Assembly (NCBI GenBank): GCA_947488685.1
Contig: CANLAH010000006.1
Span: forward strand, 1-34,158
From: Acidimicrobiaceae bacterium
GTDB lineage: Bacteria; Actinomycetota; Acidimicrobiia; Acidimicrobiales; Ilumatobacteraceae
Direction of reading: 5' to 3'
DNA length: 34,158 nt
The translations under genes were made by a program, and so were the position numbers. The notes beneath the pieces were generated by a model. The model did no database searches. It saw nothing but the letters and a program-made list of their open reading frames with translations, and had not been told where the DNA came from. Positions 16,151-34,158 of this stretch are shown one piece after another. Within the stretch, counting starts at the first letter, position 1. Each line of letters starts with the position of its first letter.

Positions 16151-17089
16151 ATGCCTGCTATACAAGTTGCCGATACTTTGATCCTGCCACGACTAGCAGC
16201 GGTGCTGCCAGAATCAGTTGAGCGGGGCGTGGTCAAGATTGCTCCGGGTCGTGCAGGTCTCGAGGGAGCAGGGTTTCCGGTCTATCGCGGATTCGCTGGC
16301 CTCTCCGTGCAAGACATTGATCCATTTTTAATGCTCGATCAGTTGGGCCCGGTATTGAACGGACCGTTCGAGACCAAAGGAGCGCCATGGCATCCGCATC
16401 GTGGTTTTGAAACTGTGACATATGTGCTTGACGGCGAGATTGCACACCATGATTCACACGGCGGTGGTGGCATCATCGGCGATGGCGACACGCAGTGGAT
16501 GACAGCAGGCGCAGGAATCTTGCACGACGAAGTTCCGACCGACAAAGTGTTGAACAACGGCGGATGGCAACACGGAATCCAACTGTGGGTGAATCTGCCA
16601 AAAACTCTTAAGTTTTCTGCTCCGCGATATCAGGGAATTTCGGCAAACAAGTTAACGCTCACGACATCACACGATGGCGGAGCACTTGTTCGCATTATTG
16701 CTGGAGACATTGCGGCGCACTCAGGGCCTGGCAGTACACATACGCCCATTGCGATTGCGCATGTCACTCTTGCCCCTGGCGCACAACTTGTTGTGCCCTG
16801 GAATCCAGAGTTCAATGCCATGGTGTACATGCTGTTAGGTGGGGCAACCGTGGGCTCCCAGCGTCACGTTTTGCCTCCTCACCATGTCGCTCTTTTTGGC
16901 GCCGGGGGTCATCTTGTGGTCACGGCAACAGACCAAACAGCAGATTTCTTGCTGCTTGGGGGATTGCCGATTCGCGAGCCCGTTGTGCAGTATGGGCCGT
17001 TCGTGATGAACACTCAAGACGAGATTCAGCAGGCGTTTCGGGACTATGAATCTGGCCTCTTGGGGACGATTCCGACCCTGAAGGGGTGA
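16151..17089 (+). CDS. Pirin family protein
   Basis: A 312-residue bicupin of the pirin family. The N-terminal metal site is intact: His81 and His83 (PWHPHRGFETVTYVLDG), His125 and Glu127 (TAGAGILHDEVP). Surrounding family marks include EGAGFPVYRGFAGLSVQDIDPFLMLD (split here: GAGFPVYRGFAG, DIDPFLMLD) and QLWVNLP. Pirins are Fe-binding cytoplasmic proteins; some have quercetinase activity and others modulate metabolic enzymes, so no specific role is assigned. The N-terminal MPAIQVADTLILPR looks like that of other actinobacterial pirins as I recall them, supporting the ATG at 16151. The gene ends 38 bp before the start of the secreted protease gene. Confidence 0.9.
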   Translation: MPAIQVADTLILPRLAAVLPESVERGVVKIAPGRAGLEGAGFPVYRGFAGLSVQDIDPFLMLDQLGPVLNGPFETKGAPWHPHRGFETVTYVLDGEIAHHDSHGGGGIIGDGDTQWMTAGAGILHDEVPTDKVLNNGGWQHGIQLWVNLPKTLKFSAPRYQGISANKLTLTTSHDGGALVRIIAGDIAAHSGPGSTHTPIAIAHVTLAPGAQLVVPWNPEFNAMVYMLLGGATVGSQRHVLPPHHVALFGAGGHLVVTATDQTADFLLLGGLPIREPVVQYGPFVMNTQDEIQQAFRDYESGLLGTIPTLKG

Positions 17090-17127
17090 GCAGACTTTTT
17101 GGTATCATTGGGCTAGAACTAGAGCAC

Positions 17128-20100
17128 ATGAATAAACAATCACTCCCTCGCGCGGCGCAGTGTATGCGCGCCATTCGTTGGGTGGTGCTCGGAGCCACAT
17201 TGGCCGGTGCTGCCGTTACTTTTTCTCCTGCGGCAGTGCAAGCACTCAGTGTCTCTTCTGATTACATCGTGGTGTTGCGCGACGGAGTAAACCTTTCGAA
17301 GAAAGTTGCGTCTGAAGAAAAGCGTGGCAACGACGTTGCAGATACCTTCTCAGCTGGCTCTGACGGCTTCGTTGCGTCGCTCGATAGTTCTGATGTCGCG
17401 AGATTGCGCAAAGACAACGATATACGGATCATCGAGCGAGATGCTCCCGTGTCACTTGTCTCTGATAACGAACCCGACAGAATCAGTGCACTGTCCACCC
17501 CAACCGGTGCAGTTGGCGAGGTCATTCCTGGCCGCTATATCGTGCAATATAAGTCGAACGCTGCGTTACTTTCTTCAGTGAGCACTTTGGGTATCTCGGT
17601 ACTAGCCAATTACACAAATGTTTTCCCCGGGTATGTCGCTGAACTGAGCGCTGCAACAGCCAACCAGTTGCGGGTAACACCAGGTGTTGTGCTGGTCGAA
17701 CAAGACACTGTTGTCACAATAAATACAGACCAAGCAATCGGAGCAGGCGACTCGTGGGGTCTCGACAGAGTTGATCAACGGTCACTTCCGATGAACGGCA
17801 CCTATTCATACACTGCAACTGGTGCCGGTGTTTCGGCGTACATCATTGATACTGGCATTCGAGCCACACACACGCAACTTGCGGGCAGAGTGGGGAGTGG
17901 CTTCACGGCGGTGAATGACGGCAACGGTTCTTCAGATTGCCACGGTCACGGAACACATGTCTCTGGCACGGTGGGGGGAACAAAATATGGCATTGCAAAA
18001 AATGTCAATTTCTTCCCAGTGCGAGTATTGAATTGCAGCGGCTCAGGAAGCATCTCTGGTGTTATTGCCGGAATTGATTGGGTGATCGCACACCACATCG
18101 CAGGTGTTCCAGCGGTTGCCAACATGAGCCTTGGTGGTGGCTACAGCTCTAGCCTCAATGCCGCTGTCGCGCGAGGGGTAGTGGACGGAGTGGTTTTTGC
18201 GGTTGCTGCAGGCAACGAAGCCTCGAATGCGTGCAATGTTTCTCCGGCATCTGAACCAACTGCGATCACAGTCGGTGCAACCGACACAAGTGATGCGCGT
18301 GCATATTTCTCAAACTACGGATCATGTGTCGACATCTTTGCGCCGGGAGTGGGTATCACTTCGTCTACAGCGACAAGTGATACATCAACTGCTTCATGGT
18401 CTGGCACCTCGATGGCTGCACCTCATGTGGCTGGAGTTGTGGCGCAGTATTTGCAATCTCACCCTACGGATACGCCAGCCCAAGTCGCTCGTGCCTTAGA
18501 TGCCGCCGCTACTCAAAATATTGTTGCAAACCCCGGAACTGGCTCACCAAACAAATTGCTCTATAACGCCTCGTTTGACCCAGCACCAATTACTGTGCCG
18601 AGTGCTCCAAATTCGGTGACGTCAGTTATCGGATCCTCGCAAGTCACTCTGAGTTGGGGGACACCCTCAACAGACGGCGGAGCCTCCATCTCTAATTATG
18701 TGGTGGAGTATTCATCTGCTTCAGGCTCGTGGACTACTTTTTCTCACCCTGCGTCGACTGCGCTGTCACTTGTTGTGACTGGTCTGACAAACGGAACTGC
18801 GTATTCGTTTCGTGTATCGGCAACTAATAGCGTAGGCACGAGCGTTCCTTCGGCGATAGTAACCGCTACTCCAACTAATCCGGCTCTGCCGTCCGCGCCA
18901 ACCGGTGTTTCGGCAAAACCCGCAGACGCATCTGCTGTGGTGCGTTGGACTGCACCAAGCGCAACAACTATTTCATCAATCACAATTAACTCGTCTACTC
19001 CGTATGTAGATATTCCACTGGCCGCCGGACCACTTGACGTGATTGGTCACTCAGACCATTCATGCGCTGCACACGTTGCAAGCGCCATTGATCCGTGGCT
19101 TGATGTCGTTGAAGTCTCTTCTGGTCGAGTGATTTTATCTAATGACGACGGTGCTCATAACTATTCAACTGATTGCTATGCATCACGCATCACCACCACT
19201 ATCTCTGGTTCTGGATATGCCTTGAGAGTGAAGGGCTGCTGTGGTCATCCATACGGAGTCGTGCGACTAGAACAACGCTCAACAGTCATAGATGTCACTG
19301 GCTACACGGTCACGTCATCTCCGGGTGCTCGCACATGCACCACGACAACCCTGTCGTGCACAGTAACTGGTCTCACAAACGGCACGCCATATACATTCAC
19401 AGTCATCGCTACTAATGCAGCAGGCAACAGCGTGCCATCTGCTGCATCGACTGCTGTCACGCCAACTGGACCACTTGCTCCGTCTGCACCAACTGCTGTC
19501 GTGGCACGAGCCGCAGACGCATCTGCTGTGGTGCGTTGGACTGCACCAGTGAGCTCGTCTCCGCGTTGGCAGCGAGAAGCTGGCTCCATCCAAGCCACAG
19601 AAGTTGATCTAGATGCTCCGTACGACTCTGGTTATTCAATCCGACAATGGACGAATTGTGCATGCGCTCGATTTAGATGGGTGAGCCCAACGCGAATTTC
19701 TGATGTCTATGACACGGATATTGTGCTGGTCGACACAAAGTTGCCTGTCACTGGCTACACGGTCACGTCATCTCCTGGTGCTCGCACATGCACCACGACA
19801 ACCCTGTCGTGCACAGTGACTGGTCTCACAAACGGCACGCCAACTGGACCACTTGTTCCGTCTGCACCAACTGGTGTCTTGGCAACAGCCGCAGACGCAT
19901 CTGCTGTGGTGCGTTGGACTGCACCAGTGAGCTCGTCTGTCACTGGCTACACGGTCACGTCATCTTCTGGTGCTCGCACATGCACCACGACAACCCTGTC
20001 GTGCACAGTAACTGGTCTCACAAACGGCACCCCATACACATTCACAGTGATTGCTACTAATGCAGTAGGCAACAGCGTGCCATCTGCTGCATCGACTGCT

Positions 20101-21411
20101 GTCACGCCGTTTGCATATGTGCCTGGTGATGTTGTTGCCGCTTCGTGGGGTCTTGATCGCATTGATCAGCGTGCGCTACCTCTGAACGGACGTATCACCA
20201 GAGCCGGAGCGGGCGCTGGAGTGACGGTATATGTTATTGATACTGGTATTTATGCGGAGCATAGTGAGTTTGGTACTCGTGTGAGGTCAGGCTTTGATGC
20301 AGTAAATGATGGTCGTGGAACGCAAGACTGTCAGGGACATGGTACGCATGTCAGCGGAACGGTGGGTGGCACAACATATGGCGTGGCCCCACTTGTCTCA
20401 CTTGTACCAGTGCGTGTTTTGGATTGCTACGGAAGTGGTTCGCTTTCAGGGGTTATCGCAGGTATTGATTTTATGATTCAAGACCATCAAGCAGGGGTTC
20501 CTGCGGTGGCAAATATGAGTCTGGGTGGGGCCGGGGTCAGCGCATCATTAAATGATGCAGTTGAACGTGCCATTGCTGATGGCATCACGGTTGTAGTGGC
20601 TGCAGGGAACAGTTATGCCGATGCATGTGGATTCTCACCGGCGTCAGCGACAGGTGCAGTCACTGTAGGAGCAACGACATCCTCTGACTCAATGGCGTAT
20701 TACTCAAACTATGGATCATGTGTAGATATCTTTGCTCCCGGAAGCTCGATTACTTCAGCGGCAATATCTTCAGTGACTGCGACAGCAACGATGTCTGGAA
20801 CATCAATGGCAAGTCCTCATGTAGCGGGCGTGGCAGCCGTGCTCTTAGGTACGCAGAACTCGTTAACGCCAGCCTCGGTAACGACAGTATTAAAAACAAC
20901 AGCAACTCCTGATGTTGTCACGTCACTTGGGGCGCGTTCTCCGAACCTGTTGTTGTTCTCACGCTTAGTAGCACCGGCAAGCGCTACTCCCGTGACGCCA
21001 CCGACAACTGTGCCAACAACAACTGTGCCAACAACAACCGTGCCAACAACCGTGCCGACAACTGTGCCAACAACCGTGCCAACAACCGTGCCAACAACTG
21101 TGCCAACAACTGTGCCGACAACTGTGCCAACAGCCGTACCGACAGTTGACACACGGTCGGCCGTTGACTCTGCTCCGCAGATCACGGCAATCACGAGTGT
21201 TGGTCGGCGCGTCACGGTCACGGTTAATGCGCCAGCCGGAGCATTAGTCACCATCGTTCGCAATGGCAAGGTTGTAGCAAAGGGCAAGTCGTCGGTCTTT
21301 ACTATTAAAAATGTCGCTCGCGGAAACCATAGTTTTCTGGCAAAAGTCAAGATTGGCAAGCGAACCTTAAAGTCGCAAGTAGTCAGTTTTTCCGTCTCCA
21401 CAAAGCGCTGA
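17128..21411 (+). CDS. Secreted multidomain protein with two subtilisin (S8) domains and Fn3 repeats
   Basis: A 1427-residue exported serine protease. The start at 17128 gives a clear signal peptide (basic [17 protein letters not shown], a hydrophobic core, probable cleavage after VQA39). Order: two inhibitor-I9-like propeptide units ([11 protein letters not shown]..., GRYIVQYKS...), S8 domain 1 with Asp241, His274 and Ser428, one ordinary Fn3 unit, three related Fn3-like units (two interrupted, one shortened), S8 domain 2 with Asp1038, His1071 and Ser1226, an 11-unit Thr-Thr-Val-Pro linker, and a C-terminal beta-rich Lys/Arg-rich domain. Both triads are complete, and the oxyanion Asn lies in NMSLGG in each. 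Both S8 domains resemble proteinase K-type enzymes. No LPxTG sorting signal is seen. A GTG at 17086 is an alternative start but adds a poor leader. The target is unknown; a scavenging or predatory role is only inference. Confidence 0.9.
18889..20110 (+). repeat. Fn3-encoding DNA repeats, interrupted and recombined
   Basis: Three nearly identical Fn3-coding units. The upstream half (GCAGACGCATCTGCTGTGG...) occurs at 18922-18957, 19513-19548 and 19891-19926. The downstream half (GTCACTGGCTACACGGTCAC...) begins at 19294, 19747 and 19939. Units 1 and 2 have unrelated in-frame inserts of 336 and 186 bp at the junction of the halves; unit 3 is uninterrupted. Unit 2 also lacks the last 25 codons. 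The near-identity of the third-strand portions suggests recent duplication or gene conversion. Confidence 0.85.
21004..21141 (+). repeat. Short tandem repeat coding for a Thr-Thr-Val-Pro linker
   Basis: Eleven tandem units, mostly 12 bp (ACAACYGTGCCR) with two 15-bp units, encode (T)TTVP and a final TAVP. The reading frame is kept throughout. Such linkers tether extracellular domains and are often glycosylated; the length probably varies among strains by slippage. Confidence 0.9.
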
Positions 21412-22224: not shown

Positions 22225-23425
22225 GGCGAATCGGCAATTGCTTAATGCCATGAACAAAATGTGATCGCATTCGCTTGACGTCGCCGATTAATTCAATATT
22301 TTTCACCTGCTTAGCGAGTTCTTCAAAGATAATTCGCATTTCTAGCTTTGCCAAGTTTGACCCAAGACAGAAGTGCGGTCCACCGCCGCCAAATGTGACA
22401 TGAGGATTTGGGTTTCGTCGAATATCAAAAGTGAACGGATCAGCAAAAACTTCTTCGTCGCGGTTTGCTGACACATAAAACATGACGACACAGTCACCCT
22501 CTTTGATTTCGTGACCGCGTAGTTCTACGTCGCACACTGCAGTGCGGCGAAAAGAGTTGACGGGAGTAGCCCAGCGGAGGATTTCTTCGACGGCTGACGG
22601 CACAACTGACAAGTCGGCACGCATCTGCTGAAAGGATTCTGGATTTTCTGTGAGAGCCAACACCCCGTGGCTGATTCCGTTACGGGTAGTTTCATTGCCG
22701 GCAACTGAGAGCAGGAGCATAAATAGTTCAAACTCATGTTCGCGCAGGTGATCTTGAGCGGTGTCATCAATAAGTGCCGTGATGATGTCGTTGCGTGGGT
22801 CGGCGCGTCTAGCGGCGGCCACTCCGTTGAAGTACATATATAACTCAGCGGCAGCACTTTGAGCATCTTCTGGACCAGACGACATATCAGGGTCTGTGGA
22901 TCCGATCATTCGGTTTGACCAGTCGAACACTTTATGACGATCTTCGACAGGGATACCCACTAATTCTGCAATCGCAATGAGTGGTAGTTCTGCAGATATT
23001 TTTTCGACAAACTCTACGTCGCCAGATTTGAGTCCTTCGGAGACAAGTTCGGCAGCGACTTCGCGGAAATGGTCTTCGAGCATGCGCATGGCTTTGGGTG
23101 TAAAGCCCCGATTAACGAGTGTGCGCAAACGTGTGTGGTCTGGAGGATCTGTGTCGATCATTAATCGTGACTCTTCAAGGTCTGGTCTGTTCTCTGGCAT
23201 CAAAGAGCCCTTGAGTGCCGAAGAATAAATCTGAAACTGACGACTCACTGAGACAAGGTCGGCGTGTTTAGTAATAGCCCAGAACTTTTCTGGGAAGCCT
23301 TCTTCTAGACCTGGAGCCAAAATGATTGGCGACTCCTGTCGTAGCCGAGTGAAGATCTCGTGAGGTGGGCCATGTCGATAGGCCTCGTTGCTAATGATGT
23401 CAATATCAACGATCTTGCTGTTCAT
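22217..23425 (-). CDS. Cytochrome P450, CYP124/CYP125-like (third)
   Basis: A 402-residue soluble P450. AGNETTRN at 242-249, ExxR at Glu281-Arg284, and the haem loop FGGGGPHFC at 345-353 (Cys353) are all present. The NETTRN...SHGVLAL I-helix and the FGGGGPHFCLGSNLAKLE loop are typical of the actinobacterial CYP124/125/142 group. Members oxidise the terminal methyl of cholesterol or methyl-branched lipids. It overlaps the Ltp2-like gene by four bases as the last gene of a six-gene operon, whereas cyp125 is first in the mycobacterial igr operon. The context supports side-chain terminal hydroxylation of a steroid or isoprenoid. Which subfamily it belongs to cannot be decided by eye. Confidence 0.9.
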   Translation of the reverse strand: MNSKIVDIDIISNEAYRHGPPHEIFTRLRQESPIILAPGLEEGFPEKFWAITKHADLVSVSRQFQIYSSALKGSLMPENRPDLEESRLMIDTDPPDHTRLRTLVNRGFTPKAMRMLEDHFREVAAELVSEGLKSGDVEFVEKISAELPLIAIAELVGIPVEDRHKVFDWSNRMIGSTDPDMSSGPEDAQSAAAELYMYFNGVAAARRADPRNDIITALIDDTAQDHLREHEFELFMLLLSVAGNETTRNGISHGVLALTENPESFQQMRADLSVVPSAVEEILRWATPVNSFRRTAVCDVELRGHEIKEGDCVVMFYVSANRDEEVFADPFTFDIRRNPNPHVTFGGGGPHFCLGSNLAKLEMRIIFEELAKQVKNIELIGDVKRMRSHFVHGIKQLPIRLS

Positions 23426-24600
23426 CTGTCTACTCCTAGGATTAGTCCGCTTGTTGGTACACCTGTCCCTGCCGTCACAAGCACGTGTTCTACATTAGGC
23501 ACCTGATTGACGCTTGTGCTCCGTATTTGGCGAACACCTTCTGCAATTCCGTTCATTCCGTGAATATATGCCTCACCAAGTTGACCACCATGAGGGTTGA
23601 TGGGCAGAGATCCGCCCATTTCGATGCGGCCATTGGTGATGAAGTCTTTCGCATCGCCGCGAGGGCAGAATCCGAATTCTTCTAACTGCATCAATACATA
23701 CGGCGTGAAATGGTCATAGAGCACGGCGGTCTGAATATCAGCAGGTGATAATCCACTTGAACTCCAGAGTTCATCTGCGACCAATTTCATTTCGGGTAGG
23801 TGGGCAATGTCGTCACGATAAAAACTTGTCATTGTCCATTGATCTTTGCCAGCACCCTGGGCGACAGCCTTGACGATGGCAGGCTTCTGGGGCATATCTC
23901 GCGCACGCTCGACAGTTGTAACGATGAGCGCTTGTGCGCCATCGCTCTCTTGGCAACAATCAAGAAGGTGAAGTGGTTCTACGATCCAGCGGCTGTTTTG
24001 ATGGTCTTCGAGCGTAATGGGTTGTTCGTAGAACCATGCCGCAGGATTAGTCGCTGCATGTTTGCGATCTGCGACGGCAACGCGACCCAGGTCGAGGCTC
24101 GTGGCTCCGTAGATGTGCATGTATCGCTGAGCAATCATTGCCACCCAACTAGCAGGCGTCAACAAACCCTGTGACGATGTATACGAAAACTGTGCACGTT
24201 CTGCTGTTGCGGCATTTGGTAGATCTTGAACACCTGAGCCAAAACGGCGGCCACTGCGCTCGTTAAATGCGCGGTAACACACCACGTAGTCGGCGACGCC
24301 GGTGGCGACTGCCATTGATGCCAATTCGATCGTGCCACATGCCGCGCCACCGCCGTAGTGAACGCGGCTGAAATGACGCAGTTCACCGATTCCGAGATGG
24401 CGAGCAATTTCAATTTCAGGATTATTGTCGGCGCTATATGTGACCATGCCATCAATGTCTGAGGGCGCCAGACCGGCATCGTTAATGGCAGCCAGCACTG
24501 CCTCGCACGCTAACTTCATTTCACTGCGTCCTGAATCTTTTGAGAACTCAGTTGCTCCGATACCAACGATGGCTGTTTTGTTTCCTAGTTGATTACTCAT
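23422..24600 (-). CDS. ltp2: Ltp2-like thiolase-fold retro-aldolase (steroid side-chain lyase)
   Basis: A 392-residue thiolase-superfamily protein of the lipid-transfer/SCP-x thiolase type, similar in length to mycobacterial Ltp2. Ltp2 cleaves the 17-hydroxy steroid propionyl-CoA made by ChsH1-ChsH2 in a retro-aldol step, releasing propionyl-CoA and a 17-keto steroid. Tyr295 (LYDHFTPY) and Tyr345 (NPHGGQLGEAYIHG) correspond to the tyrosines implicated in Ltp2 catalysis, as I recall that work. His337 is in the same loop. The gene overlaps both neighbours by four bases. Ltp2 needs the DUF35 domain of ChsH2 as partner, and a ChsH2-like gene is in the same operon. The substrate is inferred from the cassette, not shown. 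Confidence 0.83.
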   Translation of the reverse strand: MSNQLGNKTAIVGIGATEFSKDSGRSEMKLACEAVLAAINDAGLAPSDIDGMVTYSADNNPEIEIARHLGIGELRHFSRVHYGGGAACGTIELASMAVATGVADYVVCYRAFNERSGRRFGSGVQDLPNAATAERAQFSYTSSQGLLTPASWVAMIAQRYMHIYGATSLDLGRVAVADRKHAATNPAAWFYEQPITLEDHQNSRWIVEPLHLLDCCQESDGAQALIVTTVERARDMPQKPAIVKAVAQGAGKDQWTMTSFYRDDIAHLPEMKLVADELWSSSGLSPADIQTAVLYDHFTPYVLMQLEEFGFCPRGDAKDFITNGRIEMGGSLPINPHGGQLGEAYIHGMNGIAEGVRQIRSTSVNQVPNVEHVLVTAGTGVPTSGLILGVDR

Positions 24601-25007
24601 GGCAGAACTATCTCTACTGTGGCGGTGACATGGTCTCCCATTGAATTACTCCCAGTGACAACGACTGTGACGTCATTTCCCGAAGTAGCAGTTATCTTGC
24701 CCCGCATTTTCATTGTTTCTCCCGGATAGTTAGGCACTCCCAGGCGAACCTTGACCGATTTAATGAAGGTGTTTGGCCCTGCCCAGTCCGTGATGTATCT
24801 ACCAACAAAACCATTTGTGGTGAGAATGTTCATAATGATGTCTTGCGAGCCGCGTTCGACAGCAATGCTGGGATCGTGATGAACCTCTTGGTAGTCGCGA
24901 GATGCGATCGCCGTTGCTGTGATAAGAGTGCGAGTGAGCACAATATCGAGTGGAGGTAGTTCCTGGCCGATCTCGACGTCGCTGATAGTGAGAGATAAAA
25001 GTGTCAT
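24597..25007 (-). CDS. chsH1: MaoC-like hydratase, ChsH1-like
   Basis: A 136-residue single hot-dog protein resembling ChsH1, one half of the steroid enoyl-CoA hydratase ChsH1-ChsH2. The segment SRDYQEVHHD gives Asp38 and His43, the acid/base pair with the spacing expected of ChsH1. GSQDIIMNILTTNGFVGRYITDW is close to the mycobacterial protein as I remember it. It would hydrate the side-chain enoyl-CoA made by the two acyl-CoA dehydrogenases. ATGA overlaps on both sides show tight coupling. Confidence 0.85.
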   Translation of the reverse strand: MTLLSLTISDVEIGQELPPLDIVLTRTLITATAIASRDYQEVHHDPSIAVERGSQDIIMNILTTNGFVGRYITDWAGPNTFIKSVKVRLGVPNYPGETMKMRGKITATSGNDVTVVVTGSNSMGDHVTATVEIVLP

Positions 25008-26116
25008 CGCGCAGCAATCAGTTTTCCGAGTCGCGCAAGATGCTGGCTAGCCCCACCAAGTTGCGTACTGATTTGGATTCCCCACAAGAAAAAGCGATGG
25101 ACTGGATAACTAATGTCTGCTCCAACCCCGCCGTGTAGGTGTTGACCAGCCAGCACAACGGAGTGTCCGCCCTCCGTCGCCCAGTACATTGCAACCAAGA
25201 CATCTTGGCGAGCATCAAAGCCTTCTGCGAGTCGCCATGCCGCATTAAGAGTGGTGACACGCATTGCCTCGGTTGTGATGTATGCATCGGCAGCACGCAC
25301 TGCTACTGCTTGTTGGGCGCTCAATGGTTTTCCGAACTGATGGCGAGTTCTGACATGTTCTGCAGTCAAAGCAATTGATCCTTGAGCAACTCCGAGTTGT
25401 ATTGCACACAAGGCAACAAGGGAACGTTCGTGCATCCAACGAAGTGCATCGCGTCCATCACTGGCTGCACCAGCAACAATGTGACTCGTTGGAACGACAA
25501 CATCAAAGTCCATGTTTGCCTGAGGCTGAAGGTCGCTTCCGTTGACAGCGTTCAAAGTGACTCCGCGTGCATCGGTGTCAACAAGGGCAAGAACAATTGA
25601 CCCGTCTGCTCGCTTGGCAGAGACCAACACAAAGTGGGCATATTGCGCATAGGCAACCGCAGGCTTAGAACCAACGAGGCGAACACCACCATCGGTATCT
25701 GTGGCCACCACTGAAGGGTTCATCGCGTCATTGGCGCCAATATTGGCAATTGCAACAGAAAGAATCGTTGTGCCATCACAGACGTTGGGCAACACGAGTG
25801 CCTGAAGCGCTGTGTCTGCGTATTCGGCCAAAGTCATTGCTGCAACTGACGACGACCACAGCGGAACTTGAGCAATTGTTTTGCCTTGTTTTTCTAGAAC
25901 GAGTGAAAGTTCCACGGCGTTCATTGCAAGGCCACCGTATTCTTCTGGCACACACAGGCCGAGGAGGCCGGCCTTTGCGAGCTCATTCCAGAGTTGGCGA
26001 TCAAAACCGTCACCTGCCTGTACATCTGCAATTCGCTCGATGGTGGAAAGGCCGTCAAAAATCTGTTGCGCAAGATCTGCAAGTACATTTTGTTCATCGG
26101 TGAGGTCAAAATTCAT
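25004..26116 (-). CDS. Acyl-CoA dehydrogenase, FadE28/ChsE1-like subunit
   Basis: A 370-residue acyl-CoA dehydrogenase-fold protein. N-terminal NFDLTDEQNVLADLAQ, PEEYGGL and the later RTRHQFGKPL and GQHLHGGVGADISYPVHRFF match the FadE28-type subunit. In ChsE1-ChsE2 this subunit pairs with a FadE29-type partner into a heterotetramer for short side-chain steroid CoA esters. The partner is likely the 27089-28300 product in the same operon, separated here by the ChsH2-like gene. AAAGGA lies five bases before the ATG at 26116. The internal substrate-binding loops are consistent with the family, but catalytic Glu assignment needs an alignment. Confidence 0.83.
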   Translation of the reverse strand: MNFDLTDEQNVLADLAQQIFDGLSTIERIADVQAGDGFDRQLWNELAKAGLLGLCVPEEYGGLAMNAVELSLVLEKQGKTIAQVPLWSSSVAAMTLAEYADTALQALVLPNVCDGTTILSVAIANIGANDAMNPSVVATDTDGGVRLVGSKPAVAYAQYAHFVLVSAKRADGSIVLALVDTDARGVTLNAVNGSDLQPQANMDFDVVVPTSHIVAGAASDGRDALRWMHERSLVALCAIQLGVAQGSIALTAEHVRTRHQFGKPLSAQQAVAVRAADAYITTEAMRVTTLNAAWRLAEGFDARQDVLVAMYWATEGGHSVVLAGQHLHGGVGADISYPVHRFFLWGIQISTQLGGASQHLARLGKLIAAR

Positions 26117-26125
26117 GGGGTTCCT

Positions 26126-27085
26126 TTACTTGTGAACCTTGGCGAAGGGGAGTGTGAGTTCGTCATCAGTGGCACGAAGAACGATGTCTACTTTTTTGCC
26201 GATGGCAAGATCCGCGATGTCTGTGTCAATGGGATTCATTACCATTCGCACCCCTTCATCTAGATCAATCAACAAAACAGGCAGTGGGTATTCCAAGCCT
26301 GGGACTTGCGGATAATGCGTGATCACAAAACTATGAATGGTGCCAGTTCCGACTGCCTCTACTGGCTCCCAGTCCATCGATACGCATGTCGGACAGACAG
26401 GTCCCGGAGGGAATCGCAGTGCTTGACACTTTGTGCAACGTTGAATGAAGAGCTTTGCATTTTGGAGACCATCAAACCACCAACTGTTGTCATGCGTTGT
26501 GGCTGGACGCGGGCGCACAGCATTAGAGGCAGTCTCTTTTCGTGCTGCGGGGCGAAAGCGGATAATTCGAAACAACATTGATCCGACACGTTGATTGTTT
26601 TGGTCAAAATAATCTTGCCGAGTAGTAATGAAATGTCCGGTGCCTAGGGCAGTTGTCTTTTCAGGACTGATTGAATCGATTGTGGTCGTCATTGAGAGTC
26701 TGTCGCCAGGATGAAGGTATCGGTCGTATGTTTGTTCGCAGTTAGTAGCAACGACGCTGGTGAAATTATGCGAGAAGAGTAATTGGTTCATTTCTTCGTA
26801 TGGGCTGGTTCCGCTGACGACACGCGGTTTGATACCGGCCATGACCCAGGCTTGCAGCATTGTTGGAGGAGCAACGATTTGCTGATGAATTGATGCAGCA
26901 GCAGCAGCAGAGTCAAGATATATCGGGTTATTGTCGCCGATTGCTTCACACCAATGACGAATCATTGGGATATTGACTTCGTCTGGTGCGGGCTGTGGTG
27001 GTCCGATTTCTTTTCCGACGAATGACTGCAATTGTTGCCAGAAAGCCTGTTTGTCTTGATCTGTTTGTGATGTGGCGGTGCTCAT
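26126..27085 (-). CDS. chsH2: MaoC-DUF35 fusion protein, ChsH2-like
   Basis: A 319-residue two-domain protein. Residues about 1-180 are a MaoC-type hot dog (AIGDNNPIYLDS, with Tyr in place of the hydratase His). The rest is a DUF35 unit with a zinc ribbon, Cys217, Cys220, Cys231 and Cys234 (RCTKCQALRFPPGPVCPTC), and an OB fold. This is the ChsH2 layout: the hot dog pairs with ChsH1 and the DUF35 part docks Ltp2. The missing hydratase His agrees with ChsH1 providing catalysis. AAAGGA is about seven bases before the ATG at 27085. The gene follows the first acyl-CoA dehydrogenase by three bases. Confidence 0.87.
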   Translation of the reverse strand: MSTATSQTDQDKQAFWQQLQSFVGKEIGPPQPAPDEVNIPMIRHWCEAIGDNNPIYLDSAAAAASIHQQIVAPPTMLQAWVMAGIKPRVVSGTSPYEEMNQLLFSHNFTSVVATNCEQTYDRYLHPGDRLSMTTTIDSISPEKTTALGTGHFITTRQDYFDQNNQRVGSMLFRIIRFRPAARKETASNAVRPRPATTHDNSWWFDGLQNAKLFIQRCTKCQALRFPPGPVCPTCVSMDWEPVEAVGTGTIHSFVITHYPQVPGLEYPLPVLLIDLDEGVRMVMNPIDTDIADLAIGKKVDIVLRATDDELTLPFAKVHK

Positions 27086-27088
27086 TGT

Positions 27089-28300
27089 TTATCCTTTGAC
27101 GAGTTCACGCCACGGCAGGTCGCGGTCAACTGAAGGCTCTCGTGGTAATCCAAGACCACGCTCACCAATAATATTTTGCTGAATTTCATTTGTTCCGCCA
27201 CCAAGCCTAATTGCAAACTGACTCAAGAGATGATGTTGCCACTGCCCGCTATCGATGCTGTGTTCTCCCCACAATGTGGCATCGGCTCCCAAAATCTCCA
27301 TCGCTGTATCCATTGTTTTTTCCCAATGCCGAGCGTATGCCAATTTCATCACAAACATTTCAGGGCCAGGCATTAGTCCGAGCGATGATGCTGTGCGAAG
27401 GCGGTAACCCAGGTACGTCAGTGTCTGGGCCCGAGCATATGCCGCCGCAAGTTTTTGCCGCACCCGTGGATCACTGGTGCGCCCTAGTTTTTGGGCAGTC
27501 TCAATGAGTGCTTCGACGGTCCAAGAACTTCCGCCACCGCCAATGAATGCTCGCTCGCTTGTCAAGGTGGTGTTAGCAACAGCCCATCCGTTATTGACTT
27601 GCCCAAGCACGTTGGCTGCAGGAATACGTACATCGGACAGGAACACTTCATTGAAATGGGCGACACCTGTGATTTGCACAAGTGGCCGTACTTCGATTCC
27701 GGCTGATTTCATGTCAAGAATAAAATAAGTAATACCTTTATGTTTTGGTGACTCTGGTTCAGTGCGAGTGAGCAAGATTCCGTAGTCAGAAAACTGACCA
27801 AATGATGTCCATACTTTTTGACCATTGACAATCCAGGTATCGCCGTCGAGCACCGCTCGAGTTCCGATATTTGCAAGATCGCTGCCAGCATTTGGCTCGC
27901 TAAACAATTGACACCAGACATGATCCCCGCGCAACATTGGCTGCAAAAATTCTGCATGTTGTTCTGGCGTGCCATGCGCCATCAACGTGGGTCCAACCAT
28001 GCCAAGGCTCACGGCAAATGAACCAGTGGCAACATCGAATTTGGATTGTTCTTCTGCAAAAATTGAAGCCTGCAGGCTGGTCCCGCCTCGTCCACCAAAT
28101 TGTTTGGGCCAAGAAATGCCAGCCCAGCCGTTGTCGTAAAGAACGTGTTGCCATTTCTTGCAGGCGTTGACGTGGCCGCCCAGGTCGTCGTGCCACTGAG
28201 AAGCGTCATCAGAATAAAGGGGGGCGTGCTGAGCAAGCCAAGTGCGTGCGTGATCTCGAAATGCCGCCTCTTCAGGTGAATCTCCGATGTGCATCAACAT
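27089..28300 (-). CDS. Acyl-CoA dehydrogenase, FadE29/ChsE2-like subunit
   Basis: A 403-residue acyl-CoA dehydrogenase. CQLFSEPNAGSD at 130-141, NGQKVWTS at 159-166 and the C-terminal GGGTNEIQQNIIGERGLGLPRE are the standard FAD-site landmarks and resemble FadE29. It would introduce the double bond in the side chain together with the FadE28-like subunit. The open frame extends to 28471, but the added 57 residues look non-family and run through the palindrome and into the divergent gene. ATG 28300 is chosen, with GGGAAAAG close upstream; ATG 28294 is an alternative. This is the first gene of the six-gene operon. Confidence 0.87.
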   Translation of the reverse strand: MLMHIGDSPEEAAFRDHARTWLAQHAPLYSDDASQWHDDLGGHVNACKKWQHVLYDNGWAGISWPKQFGGRGGTSLQASIFAEEQSKFDVATGSFAVSLGMVGPTLMAHGTPEQHAEFLQPMLRGDHVWCQLFSEPNAGSDLANIGTRAVLDGDTWIVNGQKVWTSFGQFSDYGILLTRTEPESPKHKGITYFILDMKSAGIEVRPLVQITGVAHFNEVFLSDVRIPAANVLGQVNNGWAVANTTLTSERAFIGGGGSSWTVEALIETAQKLGRTSDPRVRQKLAAAYARAQTLTYLGYRLRTASSLGLMPGPEMFVMKLAYARHWEKTMDTAMEILGADATLWGEHSIDSGQWQHHLLSQFAIRLGGGTNEIQQNIIGERGLGLPREPSVDRDLPWRELVKG

Positions 28301-28354: not shown

Positions 28355-28375
28355 TTTCTGACAGTCTGTCAGAAA
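28355..28375. promoter_or_regulatory. Perfect palindromic operator candidate, copy A
   Basis: Arms TTTCTGACA and TGTCAGAAA, each nine bases and fully complementary, flank a three-base spacer. It lies 54 bp upstream of the acyl-CoA dehydrogenase start (28300) and 46 bp upstream of the divergent F420-type oxidoreductase start (28422), so it can serve both. CTGACA in each arm also resembles a -35 hexamer on both strands. The same core recurs at 32064-32084. It does not match the KstR or KstR2 consensus as I know them. TetR-family binding is inferred from form only. Confidence 0.7.
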
Positions 28376-28421
28376 GCAATCGCTGGAAGGAAATGGAGCG
28401 ACCCGTGCTAGGAATAACCGT

Positions 28422-29327
28422 ATGAAATTTTGGTGTGCGACTGCATTTATGGACACGCGCCAACTTGTCAAAGTGTCAACAATGCTGGACGAGGCGGGCT
28501 ACCACGGCTTAATGGTGTCGGATCACTTGGTCTATCCCCAAAAATTGGTGAGTAAGTATCCGTATTCGCCCCACGAGGATGGGCGCCCAATGTGGGAGCC
28601 AAGCGCTTCATGGCCAGACCCCTGGGTATTAATTGGTGCCATGAGTGCGGTCACGACACAGTTGCATTTCAATACCAATATCTATGTTGCACCTCATCGA
28701 CCACTTGTGCAGTTAGCAAAAGAAGTCTCGACAGCGGCAGTCATTTCATCTGATCGTGTCGCTCTTGGTGTTGGGGCCGGATGGATGAAAGAAGAGTTTG
28801 ACTTACAAGGTGTTGACTTTTCTACGCGCGGGAAACGTCTTAATGAAATGATTCCAGCTCTTCGTGCACTCTGGAAAGGTGGATGGGTTGAGTGGCATGG
28901 TGATTATTACGATGTTCCTGCCTGCACGCTTGAACCACACACCGAGACTCCAATTGCGATCTATGGCGGTGGACACACAGATGCGGCGTTAAAGCGTGCT
29001 GCAAAGTATTGCGACGGATGGATCGGTAACGCGTATCCGTGGGACGAAGCAGCACAGTACGTGAGCAAACTGAAGGGCTTCCTGCATGAGTTCGGCCGAG
29101 ACAACGATGATTTCGACATCATCTGTGGTTTGTATGCGCTCCCTGCTCCAGATTTGTATCGACGAGCAGAAGAAGAACTCGGCATTACCGGAACAATGTG
29201 TATGCCGTGGGCACTCGATCAAAATGTCAGCAAAGGCGAAATGTCTGGTCTTACTCAGAGTGCTGATGTGTATCGGCCATCAATTGAAAAATTTGCTGAA
29301 GAAATTTTATCTCAGGCTCAAAACTAG
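28422..29327 (+). CDS. LLM-class F420-dependent oxidoreductase (second)
   Basis: A 301-residue TIM-barrel F420-type oxidoreductase of the luciferase-like superfamily. Visible marks are MVSDHLVYPQ at 31-40, RPLVQLAKEVSTAAVISSDRV at about 93-113 and VALGVGAGWMKEEFDLQG at 113-130. It is shorter than the first one and only distantly related to it. The ATG at 28422 has AGGA about nine bases upstream. It reads away from the sterol-type operon, with the palindrome between them, and converges tail to tail with the CoA-transferase gene (7 bp gap). Substrate unknown; a role in the same catabolic route is likely. Confidence 0.87.
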   Translation: MKFWCATAFMDTRQLVKVSTMLDEAGYHGLMVSDHLVYPQKLVSKYPYSPHEDGRPMWEPSASWPDPWVLIGAMSAVTTQLHFNTNIYVAPHRPLVQLAKEVSTAAVISSDRVALGVGAGWMKEEFDLQGVDFSTRGKRLNEMIPALRALWKGGWVEWHGDYYDVPACTLEPHTETPIAIYGGGHTDAALKRAAKYCDGWIGNAYPWDEAAQYVSKLKGFLHEFGRDNDDFDIICGLYALPAPDLYRRAEEELGITGTMCMPWALDQNVSKGEMSGLTQSADVYRPSIEKFAEEILSQAQN

Positions 29328-29334
29328 TTAGTTG

Positions 29335-30576
29335 TTAGCCCAAGGCGCCAGCAGCGCGAAGTGATGTGATGGCAGCGTCATCAAGATGAAGAATATTTCT
29401 GAGAACTTCATCCGTGTGCTGGCCATTTTCTGGGGCCTTTGCTGGCATCGGGATTTCTTCACCCGTTACATGAAGTGGCAACAAAAGTTGTTCACAGCCG
29501 AGTTGTTCGGTGCTAGCCCATGTGAACCGATCCTGAAACTGTGCATCATCCATGACGGTTTGCGGCGTGTTGACTGGCGCAATGGTTGTGTTGTGCTCGT
29601 CAGCAAATATGAGCCACTCTGCAGTGGTCTTGGTGGCAAAGATGTCACGCAACTCGATCTGAAGAGCAGTGTTTCCGCGTGCATGGTCGGCGTAGGTGCT
29701 GCCCGGAAAAGCATCAAATAAATCAACACGTCCAATACCGTGACAGAAGTTTTTCCAAAAACTTTGTTCACTCGCCATGAATAAGATGTAGCCATCTTTT
29801 GATGCGTAAAACTGATACCGAACGCCTTCCCACATCCCGCCAAGGCCTGGAGCCCGACGTTCGAAATTATCACTAGCGTTTCCGGTGACTTCGCTTTGGG
29901 GGCGCTCGTAAGCCTTATGGGTCTCGATGCGATACCAATCAAAATATGCGGCCGAGTCACTTTGTGCAATCTCCATGCATGCTGGTTCGCCAGTGGTTCG
30001 TGCTCGCACGAGTGCTGCCAGGATCGACATTGCGGCAAATGCCGGACCAGCAGTGATGCCGATATTTGTTTGTGCAGGAATGCGGGCAAAGCCGTCTTCA
30101 TCAATCACGGGAGCAATCACTCCAGACCATGAATCGTATGCAATGCCGTGACTTGGCAAGCCACGGTATGGCCCTGTTGCTCCGTAACCAGAAATCGTGC
30201 AGAACACAATTTTGGGCTGTAGTTCTTTGAGGCGCTCAAAGCCAAGGCCCATTTTGTCCAAGAAACCTGGCCGCATGGCTTCGATAACTACATCGGCAGA
30301 TTTCACAAGATCTTCAAAGATGGCTCGTGCTTCTGGTGTTTTGAGATTAAGTGTGATTGATTTTTTGCCGCGATTGATGTGTAGATGCAAAAGTGATGAG
30401 CCCTCGACAATGGGCCATGTCATTTGGCGTACGTAGTCGCCAGCAGGCGACTCAACTTTGATGACCTCGGCTCCAAAGTCCACAAGGTGTCCACCCAAAG
30501 CAGCAGGGCCAAGCAACGAACATTCAATTACGCGAACGCCAGAAAGAAACCCGGTCTTTATCGAAGAAGAAGTCAT
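29335..30576 (-). CDS. CaiB/BaiF (class III) CoA-transferase family protein
   Basis: A 413-residue CoA-transferase-fold protein. RVIECSLLGPAALGGHLVDFGAEVIKVE near the N-terminus, NRGKKSITLNLKTPEA, and FCTISGYGATGPYRG are family landmarks. At the position of the nucleophilic aspartate of formyl-CoA transferase (before the ILAAL helix) the sequence reads NIGITAGPAF, so the Asp appears replaced. Activity by the usual acyl-enzyme route is in doubt. The start ATG 30576 is four bases after the aldehyde dehydrogenase stop, so the two are co-transcribed. The frame extends to 30657 inside that gene, which was rejected. It would transfer or retain CoA on a carboxylic substrate. Confidence 0.85.
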   Translation of the reverse strand: MTSSSIKTGFLSGVRVIECSLLGPAALGGHLVDFGAEVIKVESPAGDYVRQMTWPIVEGSSLLHLHINRGKKSITLNLKTPEARAIFEDLVKSADVVIEAMRPGFLDKMGLGFERLKELQPKIVFCTISGYGATGPYRGLPSHGIAYDSWSGVIAPVIDEDGFARIPAQTNIGITAGPAFAAMSILAALVRARTTGEPACMEIAQSDSAAYFDWYRIETHKAYERPQSEVTGNASDNFERRAPGLGGMWEGVRYQFYASKDGYILFMASEQSFWKNFCHGIGRVDLFDAFPGSTYADHARGNTALQIELRDIFATKTTAEWLIFADEHNTTIAPVNTPQTVMDDAQFQDRFTWASTEQLGCEQLLLPLHVTGEEIPMPAKAPENGQHTDEVLRNILHLDDAAITSLRAAGALG

Positions 30577-30580
30577 AATG

Positions 30581-32047
30581 TCAGCCAGGCCACACGATGG
30601 ATTGCATCTCGGAGTAGGCGTGAAGCCCAAACTCTCCGCCATCTCGACCAACGCCACTCAACTTAAAACCGCCAAAGGGTGTTTCGGGATTACGTTGAGC
30701 GGTGTTTACTCCGACATTGCCGCTGCGCAAAAGGCGAGCGACTCGATATGCACGCGCCGTGTCTTTGCTGAAGACATAGTCGTACAAACCAAAGTCCGTG
30801 CCATTGGCAATTGAGATTGCTTCTTCTTCGTCATCAAAAGGGAGTACAACGACAACTGGTCCAAAAATTTCTTCTTGAACTGGAGTCATGTCAGGACGAC
30901 AATCCGCCAGCAACGTAGGAGCGACATAAAAGCCATGCTCCATGTGGCTTGGGCGACGACCATCGACGACAATGGTGGCGCCTTGCTGTGCACCAGTGGC
31001 GATGTAACCGTCGATGCGATCACGTTGTGCTGCTGAAATTACTGGACCAACCATTGTGTCAATAGCGGTTGGGTCTCCGACTTTGAGTGCACGTGCTGCG
31101 CCAGCAAGTTTTTCTACTAACTCATCGTATTTACTGCGGTGCACAATGGCGCGCGTTGGGGCAGTGCAGATTTGTCCACTATGAAAACCCCAAACACTGG
31201 CAATGCCACCAACGGCAGCGGCGATGTCGGCATCTTCGAACACAAGTGCAGCGCCTTTGCCTCCAAGTTCGAGCAAGAGTCGTTTCATCGTGAGTGAACC
31301 AGCTGAAAAGATGCGCTGACCAATGCCGGTACTGCCAGTAAACGACACCATGTCTACGTCACGTGTTTCTGTGAGCGCCGCAGCAGGCTCCGCTTTGGTT
31401 GAGGTGATGACGTTAATCACTCCTGGTGGAAAACCAATGTCGTGCATCATCTCAACAAGTTCGATGACTGCGAGAGGGTCTTGTGGAGCAGGCTTGATAA
31501 CAACAGTGCAACCCATTGCCAACGCTGGTGCAATTTTTCCAGCAACGTTAACAACCGGAAAGTTATACGGAGAAATACAGGCGACAACACCAACGGGTTG
31601 ACGATTGACGACGGCCCCGATGAGTCCGCCAGGAGCAAGTGGAGTCGCCAATGTTGAAGATGGTGGTAATGGAATATCAAATGACTTAGCCGCAGCCTTG
31701 GCATAGCGTGCGAATCGCTCAACAGCGACAGGAACTTGCATGCGTGAACCAACCGCTGCAGTTGCTCCAGTTTCAGAAATAATTAGTGGCACCAAATCGG
31801 CAGCACGCTCGCTCAGTCGAACAGAGACGGCATGTAAAAGCCGAGCACGTTCTTCGGGTGCAGTGGCAGCCCACTTGGGAAATGCCTCTCGGGCGGCGCG
31901 GGCCGCATCAAGCGCTTGAGCAACGGATGCCTCAGGGGCGTGCCCAACGACTGTCTCGGTTGCCGGGTTGATAATGGGAGAGGTTCCCTCGGCCCCGTCA
32001 ACCCAATGTCCGCCGATGAGCAACTTGTATGTCTTTGGAATGGTCAT
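30581..32047 (-). CDS. Aldehyde dehydrogenase family protein (second)
   Basis: A 488-residue NAD(P)-dependent aldehyde dehydrogenase. Asn162 (SPYNFP), Glu260 (LELGGKGAALV) and Cys294 (FHSGQICTAPTR) form a complete active site, and EEIFGPVVVV lies in the C-terminal part. It oxidises an aldehyde to an acid, which a CoA ligase would then activate. The start at 32047 has GAGG five bases upstream, and a palindromic operator lies only 16 bp further upstream. It is followed directly by the CoA-transferase gene. It is distinct from the first aldehyde dehydrogenase (14738-16144), with only general family similarity. Confidence 0.9.
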   Translation of the reverse strand: MTIPKTYKLLIGGHWVDGAEGTSPIINPATETVVGHAPEASVAQALDAARAAREAFPKWAATAPEERARLLHAVSVRLSERAADLVPLIISETGATAAVGSRMQVPVAVERFARYAKAAAKSFDIPLPPSSTLATPLAPGGLIGAVVNRQPVGVVACISPYNFPVVNVAGKIAPALAMGCTVVIKPAPQDPLAVIELVEMMHDIGFPPGVINVITSTKAEPAAALTETRDVDMVSFTGSTGIGQRIFSAGSLTMKRLLLELGGKGAALVFEDADIAAAVGGIASVWGFHSGQICTAPTRAIVHRSKYDELVEKLAGAARALKVGDPTAIDTMVGPVISAAQRDRIDGYIATGAQQGATIVVDGRRPSHMEHGFYVAPTLLADCRPDMTPVQEEIFGPVVVVLPFDDEEEAISIANGTDFGLYDYVFSKDTARAYRVARLLRSGNVGVNTAQRNPETPFGGFKLSGVGRDGGEFGLHAYSEMQSIVWPG

Positions 32048-32063
32048 AGCGCCTCAATGATAC

Positions 32064-32084
32064 AATCTGACACACCGTCAGATT
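32064..32084. promoter_or_regulatory. Palindromic operator candidate, copy B
   Basis: Arms AATCTGAC and GTCAGATT, eight bases and perfectly complementary, with a five-base spacer. Aligned with copy A at 28355-28375 it has the same total length of 21 bp and shares TCTGACA on the left and GTCAGA on the right. It lies 16 bp from the aldehyde dehydrogenase start and 82 bp from the divergent amidohydrolase start. TATCAT at 32057-32062 on the minus strand is a possible -10 box that abuts it. Confidence 0.7.
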
Positions 32085-32166: not shown

Positions 32167-33888
32167 ATGCTCGATCATCTGATTACAGGCGCAACAGTTG
32201 TTGACGGAACGGGTGCTCCTGGGCGACGCGCCGATGTCGGCATCAAAGATGGGCGCATCGTTGTGCTCGGAACAACAGACGAGCCGGCCCTCAATGTCAT
32301 CGACGGTACAGGCATGGTGGTGGCTCCAGGATTCGTTGATCCGCATACACATTACGATGCGCAACTGTTGTGGGATCCGATGGCGACGCCGTCAAGTTTT
32401 CATGGCGTCACAACTGTGATTGGTGGCAACTGTGGTTTCACACTTGCGCCACTTAAGCCCGGCGACGGCGATTACTTACGCAAGATGATGTCAAAAGTTG
32501 AGGGAATGCCTTTGCCTGCACTTGAGCACGGAACTGATTGGTCATGGGAAACATTTGCAGATTTCTTACAGCGCTTCGAGGGCAACATCGCAGTAAACGC
32601 AGGTTTCTTGGTGGGGCACTGTGCGATACGACGATATGCAATGGGACTAGATGCTGTCGGAAATCCTGCTGATGCTGAACAGATTGTCGGCATGCGCGCT
32701 GAGTTGGCAAAAGCAATTGAAGCAGGCGCACTTGGGTTTTCTTTTACTAACTCAACATCGCACTCAGATGGAGAAGGAGAACCCGTCGCGAGTCGCTGGG
32801 CGACACATGACGAACTCATTGCGCTCTGTGAAGAAACCGGAAAATATCCAGGAACAACTCTCGAAGGAATCGTTCCGGGTTGTCTCGATACGTTCTCCGA
32901 TGATGAAATTGATCTGCTTGCCAAGATGAGTGCGGCCGCGAACAGGCCGATGAACTGGAACGTGCTCACCGTTGATTCCCGCGAGCCAGATCGCGTGCCA
33001 CGCCAATTGCAAGCGGCTGCACGAGCTAAAGAACTCGGCGGACGAGTTGTCGCACTCACGATGCCAATTCAGGTGCCAATGAATATGTCATTTTTGAATT
33101 TTTGCGGATTATGGCTCATGCCTAATTGGAAAGATGTAATGGCTGGCTCAGTTGCCGAGCGCATTCAACGACTTCAAGACCCCGATACGCGCATCAAGTT
33201 GTTGGAGTGGAGCCTGTCCAAAGAAGCAGGAGTATTTCGACGTCTTGCTGATTGGGCCGACTACATCATCGGGGACACTTTTTCTCAAGAAAATGCTGGA
33301 CTCTCTGGGCGAAGTGTGCGAGATATTGCCACAGAGCGCGCAACATCAGCCTTTGGAACTTTGCTTGACATCGTGATTGCCGATGAACTGCGTACCGTGT
33401 TGTGGCCAACGCCTCAAGACAATGATGCGGAGTCATGGCGCATGCGTGCTGAATTGTGGCTTGATGAGCGCGCCATGATTGGTGGCTCTGATGCAGGAGC
33501 ACACCTCGATCGCATGTGCGGAGCCCCGTACCCAACCAAGTTTCTAAATGACTGTCTACATGGGCACAAACTGATCAGCATGGAGACTGCTGTCAAACTG
33601 ATGACATCTGACCCTGCCGCACTATTCGGACTTAAAGATCGTGGTGTCTTACGAATTGGTGCAATCGCTGATGTCGTCGTGTTTGACCCCGCCACAGTAG
33701 GCAGTCAAGAGCCTCGACTGGTGACGGACTTACCCGGAAACTCGGCGCGACTCACAGCCGATTCTGTTGGCATGAACCATGTCTTCGTTAACGGAGTTGC
33801 GATCTTGTGCGATGGGGTTGCCACGGGAGCAACACCGGGAACTGTATTGAAATCTGGTCGCGACACCGAGACCGTAACGGCACGATAG
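32167..33888 (+). CDS. Amidohydrolase, N-acyl-D-amino-acid deacylase-like
   Basis: A 573-residue TIM-barrel amidohydrolase of the D-aminoacylase-like branch. PGFVDPHTHYDAQLLWDP supplies His60 and His62 as first metal ligands. Cys89 (GGNCGFTLAP) is the metal-bridging Cys position of D-aminoacylases, and IGGSDAGAHLDRMC supplies the late Asp. A C-terminal ADVVVFDP strand closes the beta-sandwich. The start at 32167 has GAGGG eight bases upstream; a longer frame back to 32110 was rejected. Although often annotated as a D-aminoacylase, family members in catabolic clusters have uncertain substrates. It is followed by an enoyl-CoA hydratase gene 8 bp later. Confidence 0.87.
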   Translation: MLDHLITGATVVDGTGAPGRRADVGIKDGRIVVLGTTDEPALNVIDGTGMVVAPGFVDPHTHYDAQLLWDPMATPSSFHGVTTVIGGNCGFTLAPLKPGDGDYLRKMMSKVEGMPLPALEHGTDWSWETFADFLQRFEGNIAVNAGFLVGHCAIRRYAMGLDAVGNPADAEQIVGMRAELAKAIEAGALGFSFTNSTSHSDGEGEPVASRWATHDELIALCEETGKYPGTTLEGIVPGCLDTFSDDEIDLLAKMSAAANRPMNWNVLTVDSREPDRVPRQLQAAARAKELGGRVVALTMPIQVPMNMSFLNFCGLWLMPNWKDVMAGSVAERIQRLQDPDTRIKLLEWSLSKEAGVFRRLADWADYIIGDTFSQENAGLSGRSVRDIATERATSAFGTLLDIVIADELRTVLWPTPQDNDAESWRMRAELWLDERAMIGGSDAGAHLDRMCGAPYPTKFLNDCLHGHKLISMETAVKLMTSDPAALFGLKDRGVLRIGAIADVVVFDPATVGSQEPRLVTDLPGNSARLTADSVGMNHVFVNGVAILCDGVATGATPGTVLKSGRDTETVTAR

Positions 33889-33896: not shown

Positions 33897-34158
33897 ATGA
33901 CCACCGAAACCGACGACCTGCTGTACACCGTGATTGGCGGCGTTGCTCGCATCACGCTTAATCGCCCTGATGCAGCAAATTCAATTACTCCAGATCAACG
34001 CAATCGATTGATTTCACTCTTTGCTGAAGCGTCTGCTGATCTCAATGTTCGAGTCGTGGTGCTGACGGCCAATGGCAAACATTTTTGTACGGGAGCCGAT
34101 CTGCGTGTGTCACGTATTCAAGAAACACCTCGACCAGAAGGTGCGCCTGAGCGCGGCG
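33897..34158 (+). CDS. Enoyl-CoA hydratase/isomerase, 3' end outside window
   Basis: The N-terminal 87 residues of a crotonase-family protein, cut by the window end. It begins TTETDDLLYTVIGGVARITLNRPDA after the Met, and VRVVVLTANGKHFCTGADL contains the first oxyanion-hole strand (G-x-FCTGADL). The ATG at 33897 has AGGA six bases upstream. It follows the amidohydrolase by 8 bp, so one transcript is likely, perhaps under control of the palindrome at 32064-32084. It is not the same protein as the partial crotonase at the window start, as far as can be judged from non-overlapping parts. The substrate is unknown. Confidence 0.9.
   Translation, partial: MTTETDDLLYTVIGGVARITLNRPDAANSITPDQRNRLISLFAEASADLNVRVVVLTANGKHFCTGADLRVSRIQETPRPEGAPERG

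Follow-up and report, generated by a model that had tools for sequence, protein, structure and literature searches.

A palindrome at steroid-type CoA-catabolic genes and a candidate TetR-family regulator in an Ilumatobacteraceae genome

A single TetR-family repressor very probably controls a steroid-type CoA-catabolic regulon in this Acidimicrobiaceae bacterium, acting through a palindrome from which an acyl-CoA would release it. Site conservation, gene context, and the linkage and co-occurrence of the sites with a TetR gene point to that protein as the repressor, and from them we infer binding, repression, autoregulation and an inducer. Two copies of the palindrome lie in the window, the 34,158-nucleotide stretch of DNA analysed here, which is the whole of contig C6 in an assembly of 188 contigs (1.94 Mb, 82.9% complete). 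The eight sites of the genome and the candidate regulator would form a new regulon of the known TetR-repressor type, in the Acidimicrobiia, a class in which many members, freshwater Ilumatobacteraceae among them, are known mostly from metagenomes and have a catabolic control that is little understood.

The palindromes and the genes behind them

Direct re-reading of the sequence confirmed the coordinates and arm lengths that an earlier note had given for the two palindromes, as well as their placement between divergent genes (Table 1). Site 1 separates the minus-strand igr-like operon from the LLM oxidoreductase gene that begins at 28422. The first igr-like gene probably starts at an ATG near 28300, judging from its orthologues; a mechanical TTG start at 28471, from which the minus-strand ORF would run through site 1 and overlap the divergent gene, was rejected because the orthologues start to the left of the site. 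The aldehyde dehydrogenase gene (minus strand) starts at 32047, 16 bp from site 2, and the amidohydrolase ATG at 32167, a conserved codon that is preferred to the less likely mechanical TTG start at 32110, is 82 bp away. At up to three mismatches the window holds 12 matches to the motif against 16.2 expected, and with no excess at this level only the two full sites count.

Table 1. Predicted sites and genes in the window
Feature	Position	Strand	Basis and remarks
Putative operator site 1, TTTCTGACAGTCTGTCAGAAA	28355..28375		sequence; perfect 9-bp arms; inside ~38-bp block identical in G000, G021, G027, G031
Putative operator site 2, AATCTGACACACCGTCAGATT	32064..32084		sequence; perfect 8-bp arms; overlaps conserved TACAAT; site here in 7/7 TetR-bearing genomes of the genus
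Acyl-CoA dehydrogenase, ChsE-like, first of igr-like operon	27089..28300	-	Pfam; best solved matches Tcur3483 (6wy8), 4x28; mechanical ORF to 28471
ChsH2-like hydratase (FAS1_DH region and zinc-ribbon/OB part)	26126..27085	-	Pfam; 4wnb, 4w78, 6ok1
Second acyl-CoA dehydrogenase	25004..26116	-	Pfam and NCBIfam
MaoC-type hydratase (ChsH1-like from gene order)	24597..25007	-	Pfam
Ltp2-type lipid-transfer/thiolase-like protein	23422..24600	-	NF005892, 682 bits (cut-off 469)
CYP125-type cytochrome P450	22217..23425	-	best solved match CYP125MRCA, 8vxi, 470 bits
F420-type LLM oxidoreductase	28422..29327	+	TIGR03619, 178.1 bits (cut-off 166.9)
Aldehyde dehydrogenase	30581..32047	-	PF00171
CoA-transferase family III	29335..30657	-	PF02515
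Amidohydrolase (Amidohydro_3)	32167..33888	+	Pfam; conserved ATG 32167
Start of gene downstream of amidohydrolase	33897..34157	+	cut by contig end; 273-aa orthologue ORF in G021; enoyl-CoA hydratase according to the earlier note only

A scan of the whole genome, which the earlier note had proposed, showed that the full motif is rare, with its copies at gene starts. TCTGACN5GTCAGA occurs exactly five times in the 1.94 Mb and the reversed-pattern control not at all; the three copies outside the window are at C7:2504, C7:20580 and C53:3966. At the background rate of 0.18 per genome (41 copies in 226 genomes of the class without the TetR), the probability of at least five copies is about 1e-6, in keeping with the earlier judgement that the pair was unlikely by chance. 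Three one-mismatch sites with similar outer arms (C7:29409, C53:10077 and C69:8373) bring the total to eight. The other seven of the ten one-mismatch matches were dropped, four lying within ORFs and three being intergenic (C20, C54 and C122) with scores of at most 15.7. On a matrix of the eight sites these score 26.6–33.8, whereas the next match reaches 16.9 and the reversed pattern never exceeds 9.7 (167 kb of the genome's own contigs), a gap that arises partly by construction because these eight also supplied the matrix; the sites of relatives, which provide the independent part, score 22.9–35.7. Looser scans of the genome, at two and three mismatches, added little (at least 81 against 54 in the control; 39 against 23).

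All eight sites stand at the starts of CoA-catabolic or uptake genes. At C7:2504 two OB/zinc-ribbon proteins of the ChsH2 C-terminal type and a lipid-transfer protein above cut-off lie on one side, and on the other a LIV-type binding protein, permease and ATPase (Pfam/NCBIfam). C7:20580 is flanked on one side by an enoyl-CoA hydratase and an SDR, and on the other by an Amidohydro_2 protein whose best matches among solved structures are DitZ and PtmU3, a FadD3-family ligase above cut-off and further ligases. The remaining sites separate TauD from an ACAD-ACAD-SDR-TetR operon (C7:29409), an enoyl-CoA hydratase from an SDR and a ligase (C53:3966), and an SDR from an ACAD (C53:10077), or precede an Amidohydro_2 gene and, after it, a ligase gene whose nearest family is steroid-22-oyl-CoA synthetase at 658 bits, short of the cut-off of 900 (C69:8373). 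CoA-dependent catabolism is the theme common to these genes, whose content suggests steroid- or terpenoid-like acids as substrates.

The igr-type steroid side-chain operon unites CYP125, two ChsE-type acyl-CoA dehydrogenases, ChsH1, ChsH2 and Ltp2. In the window CYP125, ChsH2, Ltp2 and one ChsE-like dehydrogenase are recognised from sequence, and the second dehydrogenase and the MaoC protein are placed by Pfam and gene order only. KshA, the 3-ketosteroid 9-alpha-hydroxylase expected of a complete 9,10-seco pathway for the steroid rings (PF19298, cut-off 23.3 bits), was found above the cut-off in none of the 32 genomes of the genus and as a weak match below it in five, that of the present genome scoring 20.7 bits; the control genomes for this search included no steroid degrader.

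The candidate regulator and its association with the sites

The earlier note had suggested looking for a TetR-type gene preceded by the motif, and among 14 TetR_N matches in the genome one lies in the operon behind C7:29409. This candidate (C7:32530-33165, 211 aa) is the last gene of that operon. It matches PF00440 at 26.3 bits (cut-off 24) and PF19352, TetR_C_38, at 78 bits (cut-off 23.9); EthR_C reaches 21.4 bits, under its curated cut-off of 27. A 91% identical homologue is encoded on SHUT01000003.1 (Ilumatobacteraceae bacterium Baikal-deep-G17), and the predicted structure of this homologue has a TetR fold (pLDDT 92.6). The solved fold nearest to the model is EthR (Z 20.1, 188 residues, rmsd 2.4), and lower matches (Z 15–16.5) include FasR, FadR and DesT, whose solved structures contain acyl-CoAs; families missing from these lists may still be relatives. 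The 19 homologues of alignment A1, which came from a whole-protein search, all carry the peptide PATFYQYF unchanged in the helix-turn-helix; invariance was taken from A1 only, since the homologues of alignment A2 were found through that peptide. L174 was left out of A2 owing to a stop in its translation.

The TetR gene probably belongs to the same catabolic island as the window sites. In this fragmented assembly it lies on a contig separate from the window, C7, but in three relatives, G021, G027 and G031, it shares one contig with both window sites and the counterpart of C7:20580, at 15.7 kb from site 2. In G031, which was not used for the matrix, a site is present at all eight orthologous positions (the one before the TetR operon was placed by its distance to TetR), and a single 59-kb contig carries six sites and the TetR gene. 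In aligned intergenic regions site 1 is embedded in about 38 identical bases in four of four genomes, and site 2 persists in seven of seven genomes with diverged flanks. Conservation upstream of orthologues, a check proposed in the earlier note, thus holds for site 2 in all seven TetR-bearing genomes of the genus and for site 1 in only four of the seven. Before the igr-type ChsH2 gene G010 has just a degenerate site. G007 and G030 showed none in the unannotated interval from that gene to site 2. The TACAAT conserved at site 2 overlaps the palindrome, an arrangement seen again at C7:20580 of the present genome; it may be a promoter element.

Sites and TetR also travel together across the class. 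In 81 relatives at least two exact sites occur in 16 of the 19 genomes with a strong TetR match (E at most 1.8e-27, then a gap to 5.6e-11) vs one of the 62 without, and the reversed control is zero in all 81. We also took 296 genomes of the class, drawn evenly from a larger group, and counted as TetR-bearing the 70 with a best profile match above 200 bits; the other matches listed reach at most 95.5 bits, except one 114.9-bit fragment in one of the 70. At least three exact sites were present in 47/70 of these and 0/226 of the rest, at least two in 55/70 and 3/226 (Fisher P 6e-42, which ignores relatedness), and at least one in 61/70 and 38/226, with single matches of the reversed control in three of the 296. 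Fewer than three sites were found in 23 of the 70, nine of which have none. Relatedness is answered in part by the recurrence of the contrast inside small groups: in genus g52 the TetR-bearing G331 and G337 have 12 and 13 sites and G143, which has no TetR, one; in genus g51 G221 has three and G082 none; family f36 shows four and four vs one and one, and the contrast is seen also within family f22.

Weaker TetR paralogues predict sites poorly, as only two of 16 genomes with these alone have at least two sites. The three genomes of the class with at least two sites and no strong TetR comprise two with weaker paralogues and one with none. In G052 (L209, L210) we observed three exact sites, two of them scoring 29.4 and 29.5, and only a weak TetR match of 37 bits, which may mean that a contig is missing from this assembly or that its regulator has diverged. 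Within the genus, the seven of 32 genomes with at least three sites are the same seven that have the candidate TetR. A full-length igr-type ChsH2 is found in the same seven; because TetR travels there with the whole island, the contrast in the genus alone does not single it out. Three genus members without TetR (G012, L212; G015; G023) have in common one exact copy, TCTGACAATGGGTCAGA (either strand), which in G012 has a low matrix score of 11.6 and is probably a chance copy inherited by descent.

The association reaches beyond the class with the shorter core CTGACN5GTCAG. In 66 of 80 TetR loci from named records (990 kb; the best 80 of 593 matches, some closely related to each other) this core was counted 48 times vs none for its reverse, and 63 vs 22 with one mismatch. 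Loci with the core include MAGs labelled Deltaproteobacteria, Myxococcota and Pseudomonadales, and also Streptomyces. Across the 80 loci, 63 unique sites were selected by CTGAC, and these are extended by T (67%) and G (74%) on both sides; 40 of them lie outside crude ORFs, and the other 23 lie inside ORFs picked greedily, a kind of call that is unreliable where G+C is high. The site precedes the TetR match by about 33 bp in G049, 57 bp in G205 and 95 bp in G300, distances that fit autoregulation. In whole G+C-rich genomes the short core discriminates poorly: 18 TetR genomes that have one full site or none gave 105 vs 22 in the control, and six comparators without a close TetR gave 26 vs 14, with G082 alone reaching 11 vs 2. 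In the Streptomyces locus L201 six of ten scanned ORFs have Pfam matches (thiolase-like, enoyl-CoA hydratase, AMP-ligase, acyl-CoA dehydrogenase, FMO-like and CoA-ligase type) and four have none. Motif pairs 24–27 bp apart lie near the TetR homologue in the Streptomyces loci L183, L200 and L201, and are perhaps double operators.

Predicted control and its alternatives

In the proposed mechanism a TetR dimer would sit on the palindrome TTTCTGACRNNNYGTCAGAAA, beside or over promoters, and block the divergent igr-like CYP125/ChsE/ChsH/Ltp2 operon, the LLM oxidoreductase, the aldehyde dehydrogenase/CoA-transferase pair and the amidohydrolase. It would act likewise at the six further sites, upstream of acyl-CoA ligases, acyl-CoA dehydrogenases, SDRs, TauD and the LIV-type transporter; one of these heads its own operon and would allow autoregulation. 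A pathway intermediate would release it, most likely an acyl-CoA thioester, by analogy with KstR and KstR2 and their inducers. The proposal of the earlier note that one regulator governs the sterol-type operon and its three neighbouring gene groups in the window gains support from conservation, linkage and co-occurrence, which together suggest the control itself. The same note had called the regulon local: a single regulon is supported, but it spans eight sites, making it larger than first described, and two of them lie on a contig outside the island.

The sites might instead be operators of a different regulator that was inherited with the same genes, leaving the linked TetR a bystander, as the joint occurrence of the whole island with the sites in the genus and the four genomes with two or three sites and no close TetR (G052, G103, G172 and G190) would allow. 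We consider this improbable, since the link to the TetR subfamily holds across the class and across phyla while neighbouring genes differ, several homologues have sites a short way upstream of their own TetR gene, and a TetR dimer is expected to bind a palindrome. There is almost no probability that the palindromes arose by chance or are a repeat without regulatory function, such as a terminator hairpin or a mobile or modification signal: single copies do turn up at the background rate in class genomes without TetR, but five exact copies against none in the control, at gene starts and conserved in orthologous intergenic regions, speak against such an origin, and no terminator is needed between divergent starts.

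Somewhat unlikely, yet compatible with repression by the candidate TetR, is a variant in which the protein binds but, at some of the divergent pairs, controls only one of the two directions, or in which it is an activator. The unequal distances to the two starts at site 2 and the part of the genus without a site before the igr-type ChsH2 gene would suit control in one direction, for which KstR2 offers a precedent: only one direction is repressed at one of its divergent sites (PMC3068626). Against the variant, the sites overlap or abut what we read as conserved promoter-like elements. Characterised TetR proteins, moreover, are mostly repressors, which argues against activation.

KstR and KstR2, regulators of cholesterol catabolism in mycobacteria and rhodococci, are the closest parallels, with a regulon in which an igr operon has its genes in the same order as here. 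They are TetR repressors with palindromes between divergent catabolic operons, and their own genes belong to the regulon (PMC3068626, PMC1995591). The earlier note held that the palindromes resemble neither operator, and TCTGACN5GTCAGA indeed differs from the published cores TnnAACnnGTTnnA (KstR, PMC1995591) and AnCAAGnnCTTGnT (KstR2, PMC3068626). A scan of the window found neither core at the igr-type operon. The KstR core has a single copy at 8999, inside a P450 ORF; the KstR2 core has no exact copy and two one-mismatch matches (1.18 expected), at 14399 and at 31907, the latter inside the aldehyde dehydrogenase gene. The candidate differs from KstR and KstR2 in its PF19352 C-terminal domain, a separation made at the level of domains rather than by direct sequence comparison, and the setting may differ in that KshA is found in the genus only below cut-off.

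EthR of M. tuberculosis is the closest solved fold, but identity is 19–20% and EthR_C falls below cut-off; its gene stands beside the monooxygenase gene ethA, a context unlike that of the candidate. FadR, FasR and DesT share the TetR fold and control of acyl-CoA metabolism genes, at 11–15% identity. Searches by motif and by topic found no published description of this operator; most subscription literature was outside their scope, so a prior description is possible.

The subfamily occurs with the motif widely in Acidimicrobiia, and homologues in Myxococcota/Deltaproteobacteria, in one Pseudomonadales MAG and in Streptomyces have the motif nearby too. Whether the PATFYQYF/PF19352 subfamily with its operator TCTGACGNNNCGTCAGA forms a transferable acyl-CoA-sensing switch that replaces KstR over steroid- or terpenoid-type CoA catabolism is, in our judgement, evenly balanced. 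The candidate regulator, its operator and the predicted regulon could serve as a marker for co-regulated genes of unknown function, and if this regulator is confirmed, a steroid-side-chain type operon would be under a regulator other than KstR.

Elsewhere in the window, between 497 and 22224, no copy of the motif with fewer than two mismatches was found. Ten proteins scanned there include two ABC ATPases, a molybdopterin oxidoreductase, a second LLM oxidoreductase, a second P450, PhyH, an RPE65-type carotenoid oxygenase and a pirin, possibly a further terpenoid-type cluster. The stretch 17086-21411 holds an ORF of 1441 aa that is 86% identical to its G021 counterpart over the part compared.
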